Part shown: positions 1-64,000 of the stretch, in pieces
Numbering within the stretch: the first letter of the stretch is position 1
Layout: every line of letters begins with the position of its first letter
Assembly: GCA_002869895.2 (NCBI GenBank)
Contig: NEWP02000010.1
Location: 1 to 64,000, forward strand
DNA length: 64,000 nt
Reading direction: 5' to 3'
Origin: Nitrospira sp. CG24E
GTDB lineage: Bacteria; Nitrospirota; Nitrospiria; Nitrospirales; Nitrospiraceae
Translations under genes and position numbers: made by a program
Notes under the pieces: model-generated
Seen by the model: the letters and a program-made list of their open reading frames with translations, nothing else
Databases searched by the model: none
What the model was told of the DNA's origin: nothing

Positions 1-127
1 GGCACAGCGCAAATACAAACGATTTCGCACACACAAGGCGCGAGCATGGCAATGGTTGTGGCGGATCTACGCCCGACAGCCCGACCTGTTTGCGCATTGG
101 ATGGCGGGGTCAACGGTTGGACGATAG
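1..127 (+). CDS. C-terminal tail of a group II intron reverse transcriptase/maturase (partial)
   Basis: Reading from base 2, 41 codons are open to a TAG at 125-127. The peptide is very basic at first (RKYKRFRTHKARAWQW) and ends with a LFAHW motif and a short tail. This is the pattern of the C-terminal maturase/DNA-binding end of bacterial group II intron proteins. The 5' part lies outside the window, so the reverse transcriptase motifs cannot be seen. The stop codon lies directly before a domain V-like RNA fold, the normal arrangement at the 3' end of these introns. Function in the family: splicing and retrohoming of the intron. Only the tail is visible, so activity is unknown. Confidence 0.7.
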   Translation, partial: AQRKYKRFRTHKARAWQWLWRIYARQPDLFAHWMAGSTVGR

Positions 128-199
128 GAGCCGGATGAATCGAGAGGTTCACGTCCGGTTCTGGGAGGGCGTAGGAGTGCAATTCTCCCGCGCTACTCA
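128..199 (+). ncRNA. Group II intron domains V and VI, 3' end of intron
   Basis: Bases 128-161 form a 34-nt hairpin with outer strands GAGCCGGA and TCCGGTTC, which pair fully if one G-U is allowed. Size and sequence match catalytic domain V of bacterial group II introns. Bases 163-196 can form a second hairpin (GTAG/CTAC and GGAG/CTCC) in the place of domain VI, which carries the branch-point A. The exact 3' splice site is not certain; it should be at about 196-200. Seen directly: the fold and its place after the maturase stop codon. The intron class is not determined. Confidence 0.7.
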
Positions 200-250
200 A
201 CTTTGAAACGCTGATGTGACCCCAATTTCCACTGCATCAAGAGCAACCTC

Positions 251-7818: not shown

Positions 7819-10146
7819 GTGAAAGAGGCTTGCTTTTCAGTTTGGTCTCGGTGGCTCTTCGGCCTGTTGCTCGTTACCCTGGCCTGCGGTCTTCCACCGG
7901 TGCTTGCGGTTGCTGCGGAGCAGGCCGAGGTCAAAGTGACGGCGATCGAGATTCGAGGGAACAAACGGATCGAGGTGCCGGCGATCGCCGGCCGATTGAC
8001 CTTAAAAGCGGGCGATCCCTACACTCCTGAGAATGTCCGTGGACAGATCAAAATTCTCTATGAAGCCGGGTACTTTGAAGACGTGCAGGTCGAGACAGAG
8101 TCGGGAACGGACGGGGTAGCGCTGGCATTTATTGTCCGCGAGAAACCGTTTATCACCGAGATTGTGTTCGATGGGAATCAGGCGCTCAGCGACGACAAGC
8201 TCAAGGAAAAGATCACGATCAAGAACCAGGCCTTTCTCGATCAGCCACAAGCTAAAGGGAGTGCGGAAAAGATTCGTCTGGCCTACCAGGGGGACGGGTA
8301 TTTCAGCTGTGAGGTGATTCCGATCGTGCAGACCTTGGATGAGGATCGGAAGCGCCTGACGTTTTTTGTGAAAGAAGGGGAGAAGGCCCGTGTCAGAACG
8401 GTCAATTTCGACGGACTGCACGCGGCGACGAAAGACGAGATGTTCAAGGTGATGGCGACCAGGGAATCAGTCCCCTGGTACGGACTGTTCACTCAACTGA
8501 GGTTGCCGTCGTTCGTCTCGGATGCCGGCGTCTTGAAGCGGGAAGAAATGAATAACGACGTGGAGCGGATCAAAGAGATCTTGCTCAACAAAGGGTATTT
8601 AAACGCCCGGGTCGGGATGCCGACTGTGGAGCTCATCGACGAGAAAAAAAGGTTTGTCGTGACCTACCCGGTGACGGAAGGGGAGCCCTTTACCATCGGC
8701 GAGATCGGGTTTCGCGGGAATACGGTGTTTGAGGATCCGGAACTCCGCGAGGGGTTGAAGATGAAGGTGGGGGAAATATTTCAACGGCAGAAGCTCCGCG
8801 ATGAGATTACGAGGCTCAACGATCTCTATGGGAGCAGGGGTTATTCGTTTGCCGATATTTCGCCCAATGTGATTCCCAATGCCGCAGATCGGACCGCAGC
8901 CGTCATTCTGACCGTCAAGGAAGGGGAGATGATGCGGATCCGTCAGATCAACATCCATGGGAACGAGAAGACCAAAGACAATGTGATTCGTCGTGAAATC
9001 CGTGTCGATGAACAGGATGTCATCGATACCCCTTCGTTGAAGCGGAGTTTTCAGCGGCTCAACAACTTGAACTTTTTCGAGACAGTGGAAATCCTTCCCG
9101 CGCAGGTGGCGGTGGATAAGGTCGATCTGAATGTGAAGGTGAAGGAGAAGCCGACGGGCCAGTTTAGCATCGGCGGTGGATTCAGCACGCTGGACCAGAT
9201 TGTCGCGATCGCCGATGTGACGGAAGGAAACCTTGGCGGGAACGGCTGGATGGGGCGAATCCGTGGTCAATTGGGCCAGCGGCGGACGATAGGGCAAATT
9301 ACCTTTCGTAATCCCTATGTGAATGACTCCTTGACCTCACTGCAGTTGGATGTCTACCGCACTCAAACGAACTTCATCACCTATTTTGAAACGAAATCAG
9401 GCGCCAGTGTGACATTAGGCCGGTGGCTTTCCGAATATACGACCGGCAGCGTGAGTCTGTTTGCGGAGGAGTTGAACTTTAAGAACCCACAGGCGGGGAT
9501 TTGTCCTGATCGATTTCCTCTTGTGTGCGGACAACTTGGAACTCAGACGACGACCGGGTTCCGCACCACCTTGGCCCGCGACACCAGAGACTACTTTATG
9601 GATCCCCGAACCGGGTGGCGGGCTTCTGTGGGTTTCGACGTTGGAACGCCCTACCTGGGAGGGACGAACAACTTCTATAAATATTACATCGATGTGGTGA
9701 ACTATACACCGTTGCCGTTCGATACCAGGTTCGCGATTCGCGCTCGTTACGGGGCCACGGTCGGGATCGACGGACAACCGGTTCCCCTGACCGAACGATT
9801 CTTTGTCGGCGGTATCAACACGATGCGCGGGTTTGTGTTCGGACGCGCGGGACCTGTGACCTCCAGCAACTCCCTGCTTGGCGCATCCAAGCAGTTGATC
9901 TTCAATAACGATTTTATCTTTACGATCTCGTCCGAGGCCAAATTGAACGGAGTGATTTTCTTCGACTATGGGAAAGGCTTTGACGACGACGAACCGCTTT
10001 CGACGAAGTTGCGGAAAACGGCCGGGTTGGAAGGACGATGGATTTCACCATTTGGCCCGTTGCGCGCTGCGTATGGGATTAATCTGGACCCCAATCCAGG
10101 AGAACGTAAAGGGGTCTTTGAGTTTACGATCGGTACGTTGTTCTAA
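7819..10146 (+). CDS. bamA: Outer membrane protein assembly factor BamA
   Basis: BamA inserts beta-barrel proteins into the outer membrane. The 775-residue protein has a signal peptide (to about residue 33, cut after AVAA), then five POTRA-type repeats (for example EIRGNKRIE, IVFDGNQALS, VNFDGLHA, IGFRGNTVFE, INIHGNEKTKD), then a C-terminal Omp85 barrel from about residue 430. The barrel includes a GGINTMRGF strand (the VRGF-type motif) and a terminal aromatic (GTLF). The GTG at 7819 is used because the upstream ATG at 7808 meets a stop after four codons. Two OmpH/Skp genes follow in the same direction, the usual bamA neighbours. Confidence 0.95.
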   Translation: MKEACFSVWSRWLFGLLLVTLACGLPPVLAVAAEQAEVKVTAIEIRGNKRIEVPAIAGRLTLKAGDPYTPENVRGQIKILYEAGYFEDVQVETESGTDGVALAFIVREKPFITEIVFDGNQALSDDKLKEKITIKNQAFLDQPQAKGSAEKIRLAYQGDGYFSCEVIPIVQTLDEDRKRLTFFVKEGEKARVRTVNFDGLHAATKDEMFKVMATRESVPWYGLFTQLRLPSFVSDAGVLKREEMNNDVERIKEILLNKGYLNARVGMPTVELIDEKKRFVVTYPVTEGEPFTIGEIGFRGNTVFEDPELREGLKMKVGEIFQRQKLRDEITRLNDLYGSRGYSFADISPNVIPNAADRTAAVILTVKEGEMMRIRQINIHGNEKTKDNVIRREIRVDEQDVIDTPSLKRSFQRLNNLNFFETVEILPAQVAVDKVDLNVKVKEKPTGQFSIGGGFSTLDQIVAIADVTEGNLGGNGWMGRIRGQLGQRRTIGQITFRNPYVNDSLTSLQLDVYRTQTNFITYFETKSGASVTLGRWLSEYTTGSVSLFAEELNFKNPQAGICPDRFPLVCGQLGTQTTTGFRTTLARDTRDYFMDPRTGWRASVGFDVGTPYLGGTNNFYKYYIDVVNYTPLPFDTRFAIRARYGATVGIDGQPVPLTERFFVGGINTMRGFVFGRAGPVTSSNSLLGASKQLIFNNDFIFTISSEAKLNGVIFFDYGKGFDDDEPLSTKLRKTAGLEGRWISPFGPLRAAYGINLDPNPGERKGVFEFTIGTLF

Positions 10147-54709: not shown

Positions 54710-56020
<1,311 letters not shown>

Positions 56021-56172: not shown

Positions 56173-56213
56173 GGAGGGGTGACGGAGCGGCCGAACGTGC
56201 CAGTCTTGAAAAC
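56173..56213 (+). other. 5' half of a tRNA-Ser(UGA) gene; probable island attachment site (attL)
   Basis: The sequence has the acceptor strand GGAGGGG, T8-G9, a D arm of the Ser type (ACG...CGT with GAGCGGCCGAA), the 5' anticodon stem CCAGT and the loop CTTGAAA with anticodon TGA at 56207-56209. Then only AC of the expected 3' stem ACTGG is present; from 56214 the sequence no longer fits (CAAATTT). No variable arm, T arm or 3' acceptor strand follows in the next 300 bases. This is what is left when an element has integrated at the anticodon loop. Confidence 0.72.
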
Positions 56214-56518
56214 CAAATTTGCCCCATTTTGTAAGTCCCTCACAAACCACGTAACACCGTATGAACACTGGGGGAAATTAACTTTGGCCTTTCTCCAACT
56301 TTCCTCAGCTTTCCCTCGTTTTCCCCACTCATTTCACAACGCTTTTCACAACACTTTTTACGATAGATTTTCTTGGGATTAGCGGTGCGTATCTCGAACG
56401 GCTCGGAGTGGTCATATTAGCGACACTTCTAACAGAGATCGGCAGCTGGCGAGCCTTGCTAGTGAGCTTTCTAGGAGAGATCTGGCCCGATAGGTCTGAT
56501 GGCTCTTGAGGACCTGCA
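56214..56518. other. Spacer at left end of the presumed island
   Basis: A/T-richer than the chromosome before it. It contains a run of C/T-rich words (TTTCCTCAGCTTTCCCTCGTTTTCC at about 56302-56326) and a short repeat of TTTCACAAC...TTTTCACAAC (56333-56353). No gene seen. Recombinase core and arm sites would be expected in this stretch. Confidence 0.45.
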
Positions 56519-58183
56519 ATGAAGATTGGAAGAAACGATCCTTGCCCCTGTGGTAGCGGGAAGAAATTCAAGAAATGCCACGATAATATTCGCAGTGAAC
56601 TTCCATATCTCATTCATCAAGATCGCAACGAAAAACACATTAAAGAAGAGGGCACACGCCTCCTCGAATTACAACGGGGGAAAGAGATTCAACGTCAGGC
56701 TCAGCAGGGCCTTGGACGACCAATTATTTCAACGGAACATCGAGGCTACCGGTTCGTGGCAGTTGGCAATAAAATTCACTATGGTAACTGGAAGACTTTC
56801 CCCGATTTTCTTGGCCATTACATGTCAGGAACTCTGAGCGCAGATTGGGGAAATGCTGAACTTCGAAAGCCCCTTGAGGAGCGGCATCCAGTATTAATAT
56901 GGTATCACCATCTCTGTGAACTCCAACGCAAGCACATAATCATTCCTGGTCAGGTTTCTTCTGGGCCAATGAATGGCGCTGCATCCGCCTATTACAGACT
57001 CGCCTACAACCTCTATCTCATCGCCCATAATGGGGCTGATATTCAAACAACACTACTGTCACGTTTGAGAAACCGTGATCAGTTCTCCGGCGCCTTCTTT
57101 GAAACTCAGGTAGCAGCCTGGTTGATCAAAGCTGGGTTTGAGCTTGAATTTGAGAATGAATCTGATGGATCAACGTCGCACTGTGAATTCACAGCAACGC
57201 ACCCTCCCTTGAACACGAAGTTTTCGGTCGAGGCAAAATCTCGCCAGCCTGGTAAGGACAACCAAGGCCCAAAGCGTCTTAACGTCGGTCGTCAGTTACG
57301 GTTGGCACTTGAAAAGAATGCAACCCATACGAGGCTCGTGTTTCTGGATTTAAATCAACCCATCATGTCCGAGGAGCAGGCGAGAAGAATTGGTGATCGT
57401 GCTGAATATCTCCTCAAGAAGTGTGAGGTCATCAAGATCAAAAACCAGCCAGCTCCCCCGGCCTATATTTGCGTCACGAATATTTCTGACCATTATTTCT
57501 TGGAGAATCTACAAGCAAATGTATTTGCATCCTTCTATGGTTACAAAATCCCTGACTTTCAAGGGATATTCAGGAACCGGAGTCTCAGAGACTCAGTGAG
57601 GGCGAGAGAGCGGCATCCCGGAATTATTGCATTGATGCGGTCCATGGAAAAGCACGCCCACATTCCACAGACATTCGATGGGGAACTGCCGTCGTCAGCA
57701 TTCTCGGTTGGAGAAGTCCCTCGCATGTTTATCGGTCAGACCTATATGATACCTGGTCCCGATGGAATCGAGGTGCCAGCACAGCTAACCACCGCAACTG
57801 TAAGTATAAGCAAACGTGAAATGATTCTCGCATTCCATGACTCTCGAACCGACAGGGCATGGATCTCGAAAGCGCCTATGTCTCAGGCTGAGTTAGATGA
57901 TTATAGTATTTCCCCCGACACCTTCTTTGGTATCCACTCTCAACAGGGGAAAAATGCGGGCACACCACTTGACCTTTTTGACTTCCTTCACAGAAGTTAT
58001 ATGAACACACCGAAAGAGCGGCTTCTTGAACTTATGGCGAACGCGCCAGATATCGCAGAATTGAAAAGCTATACTCAAGCCGAGTTGAGCGAAATATTCT
58101 GCGAGCGATCTGTTTACAGCATAATGGCCGCTCAGGAGAAGGTCAGAGCTCCGAAGGAAGCAACTGATGGCACGTCTAGCTGA
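56519..58183 (+). CDS. SEC-C motif protein with a PD-(D/E)XK-like nuclease region
   Basis: The 554-residue protein begins with the zinc-binding SEC-C motif (RNDPCPCGSGKKFKKCH, residues 5-21). A central part (about 195-245: GAFFETQVAAWLIKAGFELEFE, CEFTATH and then FSVEAKSRQPG) has the order Glu, acidic residue, E-x-K of PD-(D/E)XK nucleases. The C-terminal 300 residues are not recognised. Codon use is less G/C-rich than upstream genes. It overlaps the next gene by 17 bases. I infer a nuclease in a defence locus; not proven. Confidence 0.7.
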   Translation: MKIGRNDPCPCGSGKKFKKCHDNIRSELPYLIHQDRNEKHIKEEGTRLLELQRGKEIQRQAQQGLGRPIISTEHRGYRFVAVGNKIHYGNWKTFPDFLGHYMSGTLSADWGNAELRKPLEERHPVLIWYHHLCELQRKHIIIPGQVSSGPMNGAASAYYRLAYNLYLIAHNGADIQTTLLSRLRNRDQFSGAFFETQVAAWLIKAGFELEFENESDGSTSHCEFTATHPPLNTKFSVEAKSRQPGKDNQGPKRLNVGRQLRLALEKNATHTRLVFLDLNQPIMSEEQARRIGDRAEYLLKKCEVIKIKNQPAPPAYICVTNISDHYFLENLQANVFASFYGYKIPDFQGIFRNRSLRDSVRARERHPGIIALMRSMEKHAHIPQTFDGELPSSAFSVGEVPRMFIGQTYMIPGPDGIEVPAQLTTATVSISKREMILAFHDSRTDRAWISKAPMSQAELDDYSISPDTFFGIHSQQGKNAGTPLDLFDFLHRSYMNTPKERLLELMANAPDIAELKSYTQAELSEIFCERSVYSIMAAQEKVRAPKEATDGTSS

Positions 58184-59687
58184 CCGAATGTTGGACGGCT
58201 GCGAGCCCTGCCGACCATACCATCTCTGGCCCAATGAGTTGGACTCTTGGTTGCGAGACAAGATATCCCGTGACCTGACCGGTCCCTCCTCTTCCCAACA
58301 ACTCGAGAAGCTCTTCCAAAGTGAACGAGCGAAATATCTTCAGATGCAAACAGTAGCGACTGTCAGGTTTGATCCATCAACTTTCGTCAATACTCCAATT
58401 TTTGCCGCAGACGATGTCGCAATTTATCAAGAGTCACTTCCATTGGGTACAACAATGCCTGATGTTGTCGCGAGTATGGCACCTCCTTTCGATAACTTTT
58501 TTATTGAATTTCAGGGAGTGCCGAACAAGGCGAACCTGTATGCATGGGGAGTGTTTGTTTTGGCCCATAATTATTCGGAAGCGTATCGCCGGTGCAAGGA
58601 TGATCACGACACACCGCGATGGATACTGGAATTCCAAACATTTATGGAAAGAGAAAAAGGTAAACCGTTTGGACCTGTCTCTAGGCATTTTATCGGATTA
58701 GCCGAGGATGGGACTTGGTTCAGGCACTCAAATGGACTTCATTGGTCCGAGGGCCAATCAATCCAATATAAGGGTAGCACCCCAATCCCGTTGGAGCTCA
58801 GCAGTACCCTGGTGGATAATGTCGCTCTGTTGATATTTCCTGCCCTGCTAACGATCTCCTTCATGCATTGCAAGAGCGTGACAGTGCGCGATTGCGTGCC
58901 ACCGGAGAAGCTTTCATTAAGTCATGAAAAGAAATATGGCCATAAATTGACTCGTTACCATGTACTAGACATACAACCGTTACGTAAGCTGCTCGACCAA
59001 TATAGATCGGGTTCGCCAAGCGATCTTCGACACGCACTCCATATCTGCCGAGGGCATTTCAAGACCTTCACGGAAGATGCTCCCCTCCTCGGGCGCCATA
59101 CTGGGACGTACTGGTGGGCACCCCAAGTCCGTGGGGCAAAAGAAGTTGGACTCGTTGTCAAAGATTACCGAGTGAAAGCACCGGCGGAATTTGGAACGGC
59201 ATACCGAGACGCGAACGAGGTTCCGGCAGTCCATGAAAGGCAGGTAGCAGACACCGACGATCCAGACCGTATAGGTCTTGGGCTAGCGGCCCACAACCGA
59301 ACACAGAACACAATCGCGGAGGTTGTGAGAACCCTTGGATGGAACCCGCGGTCACCAGCAGCGAACGAGCCGGAATATGACCTGGCCTGGCAAACAGAAA
59401 GTGGTTTGTTCGTTTGCGAAGTCAAAAGCCTTTCTGTGGCGAACGAGGAGCGGCAGATGCGAATGGCCATTGGGCAGGTGATCAGGTACAGGCAAAAGCT
59501 CACCGCAGCCGGATATGAACCGGTTACGGCTGTTATTGGGATAGAGAAGCATCCTTCCGATACTTCGTGGGAGGAACTCTGTAGGGATGAGGACATTGTC
59601 CTGATTTGGCCGGATACGGCAGAGAAAATACTTCGCACTGAATTTGAGAATCGCCGAAGTTCTGAATCGAATGATGTGGTCCACTGA
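58167..59687 (+). CDS. Unknown protein with C-terminal PD-(D/E)XK-like domain
   Basis: The 506-residue product has no recognised N-terminal domain. A middle motif (about 290-320: RGHFKTFTEDAPLLGRHTG and TYWWAPQVRG) occurs, to my knowledge, in several unassigned bacterial proteins. The C-terminal part (about 400-490) has YDLAWQTESGLFVCEVKSLS and then QMRMAIGQVIRYRQKL, the D...ExK...QxxxxxGQ pattern of Mrr-like nucleases, with Asp403 and E-V-K near 415-417 as candidate catalytic residues. Overlaps both neighbours, so co-translation is likely. Confidence 0.68.
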   Translation: MARLADRMLDGCEPCRPYHLWPNELDSWLRDKISRDLTGPSSSQQLEKLFQSERAKYLQMQTVATVRFDPSTFVNTPIFAADDVAIYQESLPLGTTMPDVVASMAPPFDNFFIEFQGVPNKANLYAWGVFVLAHNYSEAYRRCKDDHDTPRWILEFQTFMEREKGKPFGPVSRHFIGLAEDGTWFRHSNGLHWSEGQSIQYKGSTPIPLELSSTLVDNVALLIFPALLTISFMHCKSVTVRDCVPPEKLSLSHEKKYGHKLTRYHVLDIQPLRKLLDQYRSGSPSDLRHALHICRGHFKTFTEDAPLLGRHTGTYWWAPQVRGAKEVGLVVKDYRVKAPAEFGTAYRDANEVPAVHERQVADTDDPDRIGLGLAAHNRTQNTIAEVVRTLGWNPRSPAANEPEYDLAWQTESGLFVCEVKSLSVANEERQMRMAIGQVIRYRQKLTAAGYEPVTAVIGIEKHPSDTSWEELCRDEDIVLIWPDTAEKILRTEFENRRSSESNDVVH

Positions 59688-59925
59688 AAACCTACACGAA
59701 CCGGCTGGTACCGATCAGGCCGTGGGGCTTGCAGCCGTGATCCTGCGTCACTGGGACACCTACGACGCCGAACTCAAGGCAGACCTGCTGCACCTGGCGG
59801 AGCGCTTTGGCTGCAACTGGTGGGATGTGGTGATCGACTGTTGTGTGAAACAATGGGACATGGCCTGGCAGCAGACAACCCATCTCACAGACCCGCTACT
59901 CTCTGATGAGTCCCCGCGTCCCTAG
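59671..59925 (+). CDS. Small unknown protein (84 residues)
   Basis: Starts at an ATG inside the end of the previous gene and codes MMWSTENLHEPAGTDQAVGL, a helical LILRHWDTYDAELKADLLHLAERF-type body and two Cys (DCCVK). A TTG at 59644 would lengthen it by nine residues. It has the composition of a real protein and sits in the island operon. It could be an immunity or adaptor protein, but nothing in the sequence shows that. Confidence 0.55.
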   Translation: MMWSTENLHEPAGTDQAVGLAAVILRHWDTYDAELKADLLHLAERFGCNWWDVVIDCCVKQWDMAWQQTTHLTDPLLSDESPRP

Positions 59926-60187
59926 TGGGACGGACCCATTTCCTCTCCACAAGACCATGGAGTCGGTAGCTATTCGATTCTTCAGCCATTCCCTGCGCCT
60001 CACCTTGCAGTTTCCTCAGTACCTGCCTAGAATACGCATCCCTGCGAGGCACCTATGCCTTCCCTAAGTCGTCCGCATCATCGTTTCACTGCGCAGCTCC
60101 TCGTCAATTACAACAATGGCCGACAAACCGGAATCGCTTCTACTTGGAATCAGTCTTTGACTGCCCCCTCACTCGGCGGGAAGCCTT

Positions 60188-63100
60188 ATGTCTGAGCCTA
60201 CCCCCCGGGAAGCAAACCAGCCTGACTTCTCTCGCATAGTGCACGATGGCATTGAGAGATTGAGATCGCGTCTACTCGATCTGTCCCTTGGCAACCGACT
60301 TCTAAACTATAAACATTCGGACAAATCTCGAACTCATGTGCGAATTATTGATGAAGTGCCGGAAATCCTGATCGACAAATTGGACCAGGGCCGGCAGCTC
60401 ACATTCGCATGGATCGAAGAACCGGAGTCTGAGCTTGCGGATGAACAAACGTTTGAGTTCCGTGCTGCGCTGAGGCAGGCGAAGGAAAGCGAGGCACTAT
60501 ATATAGAACAGAAACAAGCCTTAGGGCGGCGTCCCTCAGACCGCCAGTTAGCTCGGATCGAACGAGCACTACGAGACCGGCTTAGAACGAAACTAGGGAT
60601 GGCTGCCCGAATTGAGAGAACCGTGGCGGATCGGGCTAGGGAGCTGGGGATCAATCCAAGCTATGACCTGCCGGAACCGAATGGAACTCTTCCAAGACGG
60701 CACACGGACATGAAAGTCCAGACCTTGCACTATCGTGAACAAATGGAAACAAAACTTGCCGCGATACGTGATGGAGACCGAACATTGCTGCAAGATGCTG
60801 GCATCAATGCTCTGCACTGTGCTTTCGGCTTTGTAGAGTGGTACGAAACTCCTGAGTCGGAGACTGCCCTATATGCGCCGCTACTATTTTATCCTGTCGA
60901 GATTGCACAAAAGCTCCAAGGTGGTCGATACACGTATGTCCTTGATTCTAGGGATGGCGATATTGAGCCCAACACTACGCTTGGTGAACTTCTAAGAAGG
61001 CAATTCGGTCTTGAACTTCCCGAATGGGAATCTGAAGAGCAGGAACTGTCAGAATACTTCCTAAAGGTTATAAAAGTAATTTCACGAGAACGGAGGTGGA
61101 AGCTAAGAAGATGGGCAACAGTGGGACTCTTCACATTCTCGAAACTGGCTATGTATCGGGATTTGGATTCAAAGAATTGGTCAGGGGATAGGGCTCTCAC
61201 CGGCCATCCAATTCTTCAAGATTTACTGATGGGCAGTGAGTCGGTTACTGAATCGGCGCTTGCTCCGGAGTATCCTATTGACTCCCAGCCTGTCACTCAA
61301 ACGACTCCTTCCCTAGTGACTGATGCTGACTCGTCCCAGCATAGTGTGGTGATCGATGTATTGAAGGGAAAAAATCTTGTCGTCCAAGGTCCTCCGGGAA
61401 CTGGGAAGTCCCAAACGATTACCAATTTCATCGCAGCAGCCTTAGGCGAAGGCAAAAACGTCCTCTTTGTGGCCGAAAAGATGGCGGCTCTGGAGGTGGT
61501 CAAAAAAAGGCTCGACAATTTCGGCCTTGGCCATTTCTGCCTCGAATTGCATTCCAGCAAAACCCGAAAGAGCAATGTGCTTCAATCCCTAAAAGAAAGA
61601 TCAGACTTTTCAGGCCCACGGCACAATGCCACACAGCTCCGTCAGCTAAGACAAGCTTGCGAGGAAGCCAAAAGCGCGCTAATGCATTATGTTGAGCGAA
61701 TGAAGGAGTCGGTGGGAGAAACCGGCCTGACAGTGCAGGAGGTTCTTCTCAAAAACTGTACCTTTGTATCCTCAACTCGAGACTTTCCGCGAGAACTGAG
61801 ACAAGTGCGAATAGAAAAGTCTCACCAAATGGGTGAGTTTTCCCGTAGGGAACTGAAACAGCTCGCTTCGGGGCTTCAGGAAAAAAGCGCAGCAATTACC
61901 AATTGGGGAAGCCAAAGTCATCACCCCTGGCGGGGTCTGCAAAATGATCAACTTGATCTCTTCCGTTTCGACGAGCTGACTACGATCTTGCGCGATTGGT
62001 CACAGTCACTTCAGGCTATTCAAGAAGCCATCTCTCAAGCTGTAGCACAGACGGGATGGCCGACCGGCTACTGCAGGCGAGACCTAATACCATTCCTAGA
62101 GGCAGCTCGAAGCATTTCTGGACTACCTGATGAGTTCGCCGAAGATGTGTTTCGGAAAATGAAGTCGCCTAGTGACTGCACCAGACTGGAGAAATTAGTA
62201 GCAGGCATACAAGAGATTGCCGAACTTTGTTCAGAAATCGACCGTTTGGGGATGAACAGGGACCTTCTGCTAAGAGCGGGGAGTAGTTTCTTGAGAGAGG
62301 TAGTCAAAGAGGCTAGGGAATTGGGATTGAGAGAGGTACGGGTGCCTGACATCAAAAGAGCAACCGAGGACGCGAGACAGCAAGCGGTGGCATGGGAAGA
62401 AGCGCACTCAATTGGAGAGAAACTCAGTGCTCTGTTCGCTGCAACAGAAAACAGTCCGCCAGCGCTATCTATCATGGCTACTGGGGTGTCATTACTGCAG
62501 GAACTACCGAGGAGTACACTTCGCTTTCGAGTTCCGGAGGTGATCAATGAGGATAACCTCCCCACCCTTGAGGAGGCAGTACGTCAAAGAGAACAGCTAC
62601 TCCAAGAAAAAACCCGACTGAGCGAAACGATCGAAACCTCCCTGCTTCCCTCTCTGGAAGAAATTAAATCGGCGGCACGTGAATTAAAGTCCGCAGGATT
62701 TTTCAGGAGACTATTTAGTCGTGAGTACCGCCGCGCACGTCAACTGTATTATAGCCTTGCTAAGGATGGAAGAAGGGTAAACGGATTCGAAGCTGGACGT
62801 ATCTTGACAGATTTGGCGAACGTTCTTGAGCAGATACAAACGTTTGAGTCGGATGCTAGGTTCAGCATTGTGGCGGGTTCATTTTATCGAGGCAAGAACA
62901 CGCCCTGGAAAGAGCTAGTAACCATCACTCGGTGGGCACAGAAGGTTCGCCAAGCACTACCATCACAACTTAGCGATTGGGCCCATCATGTTCGGAATCA
63001 TCTGCTATCAGCAGATATTTCTCGACTTGAAGATGTCCTTGCATTTGCTGAAACCTCCGAATGGGACCGATTCCGCAATGCATTACAATTGCTCGAGGGA

Positions 63101-64000
63101 AGCTCTGCCTCCTCCTTCCAAACCGCAGCTTCAAGGGAGCGACAGCGGGAATCCGCGTTGACCACACTTCTTCAAAATCTAACAACCATCGGAGTCGGTT
63201 TGCTAAATTCCGTGGCTGATCTAGATCACCTTCCTGAAGCTGTTGGAAGAATCGAGGATGTAAAGAACAGGCTTTTGGGGTGCGACATCGGTTCTTTCAT
63301 AACGGGCGATGAACTCTACTGGATCAAAGAGCTACCTAGACTACAGTATACACTGGAGTTCGCGAGGAAATTGATTGAGGCTGGGGTTCAGGAGCCTGCT
63401 TGGCAGGTGCTTGTCAACGGCGATATAGCTCATGGATTATCCAAATTAAATGAACATGCAGGAATCATCTCAGATCGGCTGGGGGCAGCATTAACTCATC
63501 AAGGTCTAGCGTGGTCTCTTGGACGTCTCGATAGCTATCTGTGGACTGGATCTAAGAATTTTTCTGACACCTCGTTCGACAAGTTGCAAAGGCGAGCTGC
63601 CCTTGCCGCAGAACACATCGATGCGCTGCCCACATATCTTGATTTCCTTCGGGTAGAGAATCAGGCAAAATCCAGTCTGCTAGCTCCGATCCTGAAGGCC
63701 TTTACTGATGCCGAATCTGACTATATTAGGCTAGAAGAGGTTTTCGAGTTCGTCTTTTATCGGTCAGTTGCAGAAACGCTTCTGCATGAAGACCCACAAC
63801 TAAACTCACATTCTGGGTCCACCCACGAACAATTGCGGAATCGTTTTCAGCAGTACGATCGAGAAATCCTAAAGCTTCAGCGCCAGGAAATTGCGAGCAA
63901 GCTAAGGACACGGGAAGTCGATCCGGGTGTTTCCAGAGGGAGAGCTTCTGATCGAACCGGATTAGCTTTACTTATGCATCAAATGACACTGCAAAGGCGA
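60188..64000 (+). CDS. DUF4011/superfamily 1 helicase-like protein (partial, continues past the window)
   Basis: An open frame of 1271 codons without stop runs from an ATG at 60188 to the window end. The N-terminus (IERLRSRLLDLSLGNRLLNY) is that of DUF4011. Walker A GPPGTGKS lies at residues 401-408, followed by NVLFVAEKMAALEVVKKRLD, as in AAA_11-type SF1 helicases. A long helical region with coiled coils follows. In full-length relatives, later helicase motifs and often a nuclease domain come after it; they would lie beyond 64000. Many such proteins are in defence islands. A 46-residue frame (60055-60195) overlaps the start; it may be meaningless. Confidence 0.85.
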   Translation, partial: MSEPTPREANQPDFSRIVHDGIERLRSRLLDLSLGNRLLNYKHSDKSRTHVRIIDEVPEILIDKLDQGRQLTFAWIEEPESELADEQTFEFRAALRQAKESEALYIEQKQALGRRPSDRQLARIERALRDRLRTKLGMAARIERTVADRARELGINPSYDLPEPNGTLPRRHTDMKVQTLHYREQMETKLAAIRDGDRTLLQDAGINALHCAFGFVEWYETPESETALYAPLLFYPVEIAQKLQGGRYTYVLDSRDGDIEPNTTLGELLRRQFGLELPEWESEEQELSEYFLKVIKVISRERRWKLRRWATVGLFTFSKLAMYRDLDSKNWSGDRALTGHPILQDLLMGSESVTESALAPEYPIDSQPVTQTTPSLVTDADSSQHSVVIDVLKGKNLVVQGPPGTGKSQTITNFIAAALGEGKNVLFVAEKMAALEVVKKRLDNFGLGHFCLELHSSKTRKSNVLQSLKERSDFSGPRHNATQLRQLRQACEEAKSALMHYVERMKESVGETGLTVQEVLLKNCTFVSSTRDFPRELRQVRIEKSHQMGEFSRRELKQLASGLQEKSAAITNWGSQSHHPWRGLQNDQLDLFRFDELTTILRDWSQSLQAIQEAISQAVAQTGWPTGYCRRDLIPFLEAARSISGLPDEFAEDVFRKMKSPSDCTRLEKLVAGIQEIAELCSEIDRLGMNRDLLLRAGSSFLREVVKEARELGLREVRVPDIKRATEDARQQAVAWEEAHSIGEKLSALFAATENSPPALSIMATGVSLLQELPRSTLRFRVPEVINEDNLPTLEEAVRQREQLLQEKTRLSETIETSLLPSLEEIKSAARELKSAGFFRRLFSREYRRARQLYYSLAKDGRRVNGFEAGRILTDLANVLEQIQTFESDARFSIVAGSFYRGKNTPWKELVTITRWAQKVRQALPSQLSDWAHHVRNHLLSADISRLEDVLAFAETSEWDRFRNALQLLEGSSASSFQTAASRERQRESALTTLLQNLTTIGVGLLNSVADLDHLPEAVGRIEDVKNRLLGCDIGSFITGDELYWIKELPRLQYTLEFARKLIEAGVQEPAWQVLVNGDIAHGLSKLNEHAGIISDRLGAALTHQGLAWSLGRLDSYLWTGSKNFSDTSFDKLQRRAALAAEHIDALPTYLDFLRVENQAKSSLLAPILKAFTDAESDYIRLEEVFEFVFYRSVAETLLHEDPQLNSHSGSTHEQLRNRFQQYDREILKLQRQEIASKLRTREVDPGVSRGRASDRTGLALLMHQMTLQRR

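Follow-up and report, generated by a model that had tools for sequence, protein, structure and literature searches.

An integrative island that restores the 5' half of the single tRNA-Ser(UGA) gene of a Nitrospira genome

Introduction

Genetic elements that integrate into tRNA genes usually carry a copy of the 3' half of their target, and therefore the promoter of the host still drives the gene after integration. The locus described here concerns the reverse case, in which the element carries the 5' half. The window, a stretch of 64,000 nucleotides from Nitrospira sp. CG24E, comprises bases 1-64000 of contig C2, a 244-kb contig of a 3.45-Mb genome in 99 contigs; coordinates above 64000 are those of C2, on the same scale as the window. 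An earlier note on this DNA had recognised a tRNA-Ser(UGA) gene that breaks off within the 3' anticodon stem after its first 41 nt, and had proposed that an element entered there, that it should rebuild the tRNA at its other end with its own 5' half, and that a tyrosine integrase should be found beside the rebuilt gene. We asked whether the far end of such an element exists, and how the integrase and its relatives are oriented towards their tRNA genes.

Results

A split tRNA-Ser(UGA) gene and the extent of the island

The sequence confirmed the truncation. Positions 56173-56213 read GGAGGGGTGACGGAGCGGCCGAACGTGCCAGTCTTGAAAAC and include two bases of the 3' anticodon stem; the match to the tRNA is lost directly after them, and neither ARAGORN nor Rfam detected a complete tRNA there. 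A complete tRNA-Ser(UGA) gene at 71429-71518, further downstream and on the same strand, contains the predicted second copy. The two halves (56173-56213 and 71429-71469) differ by a single mismatch at tRNA position 16, and the chance expectation of such a 41-nt match in a genome of equal size is approximately 1.8e-16. The island between the left half and the complete tRNA spans 15,256 bp (15.26 kb) and reaches approximately 71469, past the window, whereas the earlier note had ended its feature at 56518, the base preceding the first cargo ORF. The expected tyrosine integrase gene is located between the fragment and the complete tRNA and ends 19 bp before the latter. The change in base composition noted downstream of the cut was also recovered, the G+C content being lower in the island (0.517) than in its left (0.556) and right (0.563) flanks. 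The features are listed in Table 1.

Table 1. Features of the tRNA-Ser(UGA) island and its left flank, and other complete islands of the same plan
Feature	Position	Strand	Remarks
serS	54722..56020	+	host flanking gene left of island; 432 aa ORF
stranded host 5' half of tRNA-Ser(UGA), left end (attL)	56173..56213	+	40/41 identity with C2:71429-71469
island part within window	56214..64000		continues on C2 to ~71469
left pair of arm-type repeats, TTTCACAAC twice, 12-bp period	56332..56352	+	part of 25-bp exact repeat
cargo ORF, 554 aa	56519..58183	+	N-terminal SEC-C motif
cargo ORF, 506 aa	58167..59687	+	partial match to phrog_20769 (unknown function)
cargo ORF, 93 aa	59644..59925	+	no function assigned
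Hhe-like 1723 aa protein gene	60188..65359 (C2), in window to 64000	+	DUF4011, SF1 helicase, MTES_1575 nuclease
primase-like (Toprim/DUF3631)	C2:66931-69057	-
HTH_17 excisionase-like	C2:69054-69344	-
integrase (int), 356 aa tyrosine integrase	C2:70339-71409	+	PF00589 and PHROG integrase matches
right arm-type repeats	C2:71355-71375		in 3' coding end of int; same 25-bp exact repeat
IHF-like site	C2:71407-71419		before restored tRNA; resembles consensus
restored tRNA-Ser(UGA)	C2:71429-71518	+	5' 41 nt = second copy (40/41)
sibling island L008, tRNA-Ser(CGA), same genome	contig C10 2707-10955		8.2 kb; same plan
complete island in G171, Ser-CGA			16.2 kb
complete island in G247, Ser-CGA			8.8 kb
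complete island in Acidobacteria MAG, Arg-UCU			10 kb

A full-length search revealed one tRNA-Ser(UGA) gene in the genome; the other returns were its stranded 5' half, the tRNA-Ser(CGA) gene (74%) together with a displaced 5' half of its own, and two short fragments. In 27 other genomes of the same genus, an uninterrupted tRNA-Ser(UGA) gene lies a short distance after serS. Thus, a complete copy exists downstream and island-free relatives possess an intact tRNA, which is the opposite of the two outcomes that the earlier note had named against its own reading. In one of these relatives, G008, both flanks are collinear with those of the genome studied here; on the right side, the collinear genes start 8 kb from the tRNA here and 2.8 kb from the intact tRNA in G008. 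The right neighbour of tRNA-Ser(UGA) differs between relatives, which show no gene synteny over the ~1.3 kb directly right of the tRNA; collinearity of the right flank further out was found in one of six genomes, so the right flank there rests on that one genome. Because the serS flank adjoins the left half, the left copy is the host's own, and the complete tRNA on the right therefore consists of the 5' half of the element and the 3' half of the host.

Two further features were observed on this contig. A dispersed repeat of ~130 bp at C2:71554-71689, just right of the restored tRNA, recurs across the genome in at least 40 copies (40 scored, 212 candidates), and by eye a similar stretch occurs near the outer end of locus L008. 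Near the start of C2, window positions 126-201 (+) match an Rfam group II intron family at 58.1 bits; any intron body on the 5' side would fall past the contig end.

The integrase and its attachment sites

The catalytic domain of a lambda-type tyrosine recombinase was detected in the integrase (PF00589 at 1.5e-28), and R201, K229, H286, R289, W312 and Y321, which form the pattern R, K, H-x-x-R, W, Y, are invariant among its relatives (alignment A1). A pair of putative arm-type repeats is situated ~117 bp inside the left end, and a second pair falls within the 3' coding part of int. Three sibling islands have similar pairs at equivalent places, and the arm repeats of L058 have a different sequence. 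A search of nine genomes for the arm motif, allowing three mismatches, returned mostly noise as judged by a reversed-pattern control. In the predicted attP, the restored 5' half runs directly into the left end, ...GTCTTGAAAAC|CAAATTTGCCCC....

In several members of the family, a site resembling the IHF consensus was observed 22-24 bp upstream of the tRNA. Among 16 loci, it is perfect in 3 (0.02 expected from shuffles) and within one mismatch in 7 (0.33 expected), where the shuffles preserve base composition only and the related loci are not independent. The genome encodes a HimA-like protein that scores just below the family cut-off, and attP may be bent by IHF or HU. Because the motif shows extra conservation (TAAGTTATTGA in several loci), it may alternatively represent a promoter element or overlap with one. 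No sigma-70 consensus promoter was found just before the restored tRNA. At two other loci (L079 and L080), a promoter-like pair, TTGACA-17-TTAAAT, was noticed by eye between the integrase and tRNA-Ala(GGC), ~40 bp upstream of the tRNA, and is a candidate for a tRNA promoter supplied by the element.

Sibling islands and related junctions

Including the tRNA-Ser(UGA) island, five complete islands with 41-43-nt duplications of the 5' half were identified, and the siblings show the same plan. The integrase of the sibling in the same genome, L008, is 54-55% identical to that of the tRNA-Ser(UGA) island. No far-end 5' fragment turned up on the remainder of the L052 contig, or within reach of L054, L056, L057 and the Ala(GGC) loci. 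In Nitrospira sp. ACE_NIT9, an integrase gene is followed by a tRNA-Ser(UGA) 5' half fused straight to non-tRNA sequence, which would be the structure expected of an attP or of a tandem junction. This genome contains four tRNA-Ser(UGA) 5' halves on separate contigs, one of them within the complete tRNA, which suggests a tandem array. In the same genome, a distant integrase (24% identity; L119, G321:C354, 938-2431) lies upstream of tRNA-Ser(UGA), and its stop-free frame continues through the complete tRNA gene.

Orientation in the integrase tree

In nearly all members of the close integrase clade, the 3' end of the gene is next to the 5' end of a tRNA on the same strand, or overlaps it slightly. 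The clade comes from MAGs of Nitrospirota, Acidobacteria, Deltaproteobacteria and Rokubacteria, and its targets are tRNA-Ser (UGA, CGA, GCU), tRNA-Arg (CCU, UCU), tRNA-Lys (UUU) and tRNA-Thr (CGU). The more distant relatives in Nitrospirota mostly face the 3' end of a tRNA on the opposite strand. With labels taken from both mapped ends in five members and from adjacency in most, orientation changes three times on the tree, compared with 11.3 times in shuffles, and the starred branches by themselves force three changes. On the integrase tree, orientation is an inherited trait that switched at least three times. The sole exception in the main clade, G227, branches at its base; its island has a 3' fragment of tRNA-Thr starting from position 29, the tRNA lies 1.2 kb from int, and the label of G227 was set by hand from this fragment. 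Two more reversed cases outside the main clade, at Ala(GGC) and Leu(CAA), were assigned by adjacency only. At locus L082 (G016:C266) of the same genus, a tRNA-Ser(UGA) 3' fragment (positions 26-90) is present ~0.9 kb downstream of the gene (features at 8580-8644 and 9499-9588), and this tRNA gene seems to be used in the usual orientation too.

Fragments of the usual orientation begin at position 26-29, in the anticodon stem, and reversed ones finish at 41-43; the part shared by both is thus the palindromic anticodon stem-loop. A change of orientation by a flip on this symmetric core would fit the fragment ends. A broader reading is that a subfamily of bacterial integrases, spread over Nitrospirota, Acidobacteria and further phyla, holds to the reversed orientation even as it moves among tRNA-Ser, tRNA-Arg, tRNA-Lys and tRNA-Thr genes, arose from usual-orientation relatives by a flip on the palindromic anticodon stem-loop, and takes over the transcription of host tRNAs, sole copies included. 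We regard the chances of this reading as about even. If it is true, the takeover amounts to a built-in dependence of the host on the element. An orientation that is inherited and yet switches makes it testable how integrases change the orientation of their tRNA sites, and also who controls a needed tRNA after integration.

Cargo and backbone genes

The 1723 aa protein resembles the anti-phage protein Hhe (NF042953) over its full length, with DUF4011, an SF1 helicase and a C-terminal nuclease. Its score against the Hhe equivalog is 1382.9 bits against a curated NCBIfam cut-off of 2000 bits, and it is therefore called Hhe-like only; in PADLOC, PDC-S37 gives the better score. This small mobile element probably carries an Hhe-like module for phage defence as its cargo. 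The HTH_17 protein and the primase form a backbone common to the sibling islands, some of which also contain phage genes: a prohead protease and a small terminase in L008, a capsid protein, a small terminase and a tape-measure-like protein in L052, a tape-measure-like protein in L077 and a weak capsid E match in L058.

Discussion

Origin of the truncated gene

This locus displays its two boundaries, a duplicated 5' half, a single gene copy, paired arm-type repeats and, at the far end, the integrase, and relatives show the empty site. We consider it almost certain that it is an integrative island which restores the 5' half of tRNA-Ser(UGA) by means of a lambda-type tyrosine integrase. The shared plan of the sibling islands and the attP- or tandem-like junction in Nitrospira sp. 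ACE_NIT9 also speak for this, but no excision of the tRNA-Ser(UGA) island itself was observed. In this scenario, the attP of the 15.26-kb island would have recombined with an attB within the anticodon stem-loop of the tRNA-Ser(UGA) gene that follows serS. The attP would have carried a copy of the 5' half of the tRNA (~41 nt) instead of the usual 3' half; the 5' half of the host and its promoter would then have been stranded at the left end, while the 5' half of the element joined the 3' half of the host at the right end to give an intact tRNA. The crossover, which the earlier note had placed in the anticodon loop, is confined by the identity of the two halves to tRNA positions 17-41, and it probably lay within that loop. 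With the 5' half supplied by the element, the promoter region of the sole tRNA-Ser(UGA) gene has been replaced by mobile DNA. As the gene is single, its expression would therefore depend on upstream DNA supplied by the element, and the restored tRNA is probably transcribed from a promoter in or before int, or by read-through from int.

The truncated tRNA might have been thought an unrelated pseudogene or tRNA-derived duplication, with an integrase nearby by coincidence, since island-free genomes do contain tRNA fragments. The fragment, the integrase, the arm repeats and the complete tRNA are exactly coupled in five islands, however, and the site is empty in relatives; these comparisons refute that explanation in practice and leave it a negligible probability. 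Another proposal concerns the cargo rather than the origin of the cut: the stranded tRNA promoter at the left end could drive the cargo genes, as the first cargo ORF (56519) reads in the same direction as the stranded half. This seems improbable here, as promoter-like matches upstream are at chance level. It was rejected as a feature of the family, because the leftmost genes of the siblings point in either direction, the leftmost sizeable gene being reversed in L008, L055 and L058.

The nature of the element is less settled than its mode of integration. It is a substantial possibility, though we place it somewhat below an even chance, that the island is not autonomous but a phage satellite or decayed prophage, with an integrase/excisionase/primase backbone moved by a helper phage and the defence module as its cargo. 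The backbone is shared with siblings that have matches to phage genes (L008, L052, L077 and L058), which speaks for such an origin, but no match to a phage structural gene was found in the tRNA-Ser(UGA) island and an IMG/VR scan for the integrase returned distant integrases only. A satellite-like nature is plausible; it refines the explanation of the locus as a 5'-restoring integrative island and leaves the integration mechanism unaffected.

Comparison with known systems

Restoration of the 5' half is the rarer orientation, a point that was absent from the earlier note, and the tRNA-Ser(UGA) island belongs to a known, uncommon kind. In the passage of PMC6563490 that cites Zhao and Williams 2002, 5'-distal recombination is considered considerably rarer, and the element cited there likewise restores the 5' and not the 3' part of its target. 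The integrase of Pseudomonas phage D3 is among the best phage matches (30.5% identity over 93%), and its attP also follows int directly; unlike the predicted attP of the island, that of D3 reads by eye as a tRNA-Ser 3' half on the opposite strand, which is the usual orientation. Archaeal pTN3-like integrases resemble the present one in having the att site in the 5' half of the tRNA, and their restored tRNA is said to be expressed from the integrase promoter, which is seldom so in bacteria (PMC8371274). They differ in that the archaeal integrase gene is split on integration, whereas here int is whole and upstream of the tRNA. In a limited search of open-licence papers, we met no account of an integrase subfamily that keeps to the reversed orientation.

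Close known counterparts are the 5'-fragment islands with an anticodon-centred att site in Islander, which lists 3760 islands with 3' and 159 with 5' tDNA fragments, 3919 in total (PMC4383910). As in these islands, the tRNA and its displaced 5' fragment (56173-56213 and 71429-71518, both +) have the same orientation, with the fragment on the correct side, the integrase gene (70339-71409) between them, a size in range and an empty site in related genomes. Only 159 of the 3919 Islander islands have a 5' fragment, whereas the reversed trait described here runs through an integrase clade.
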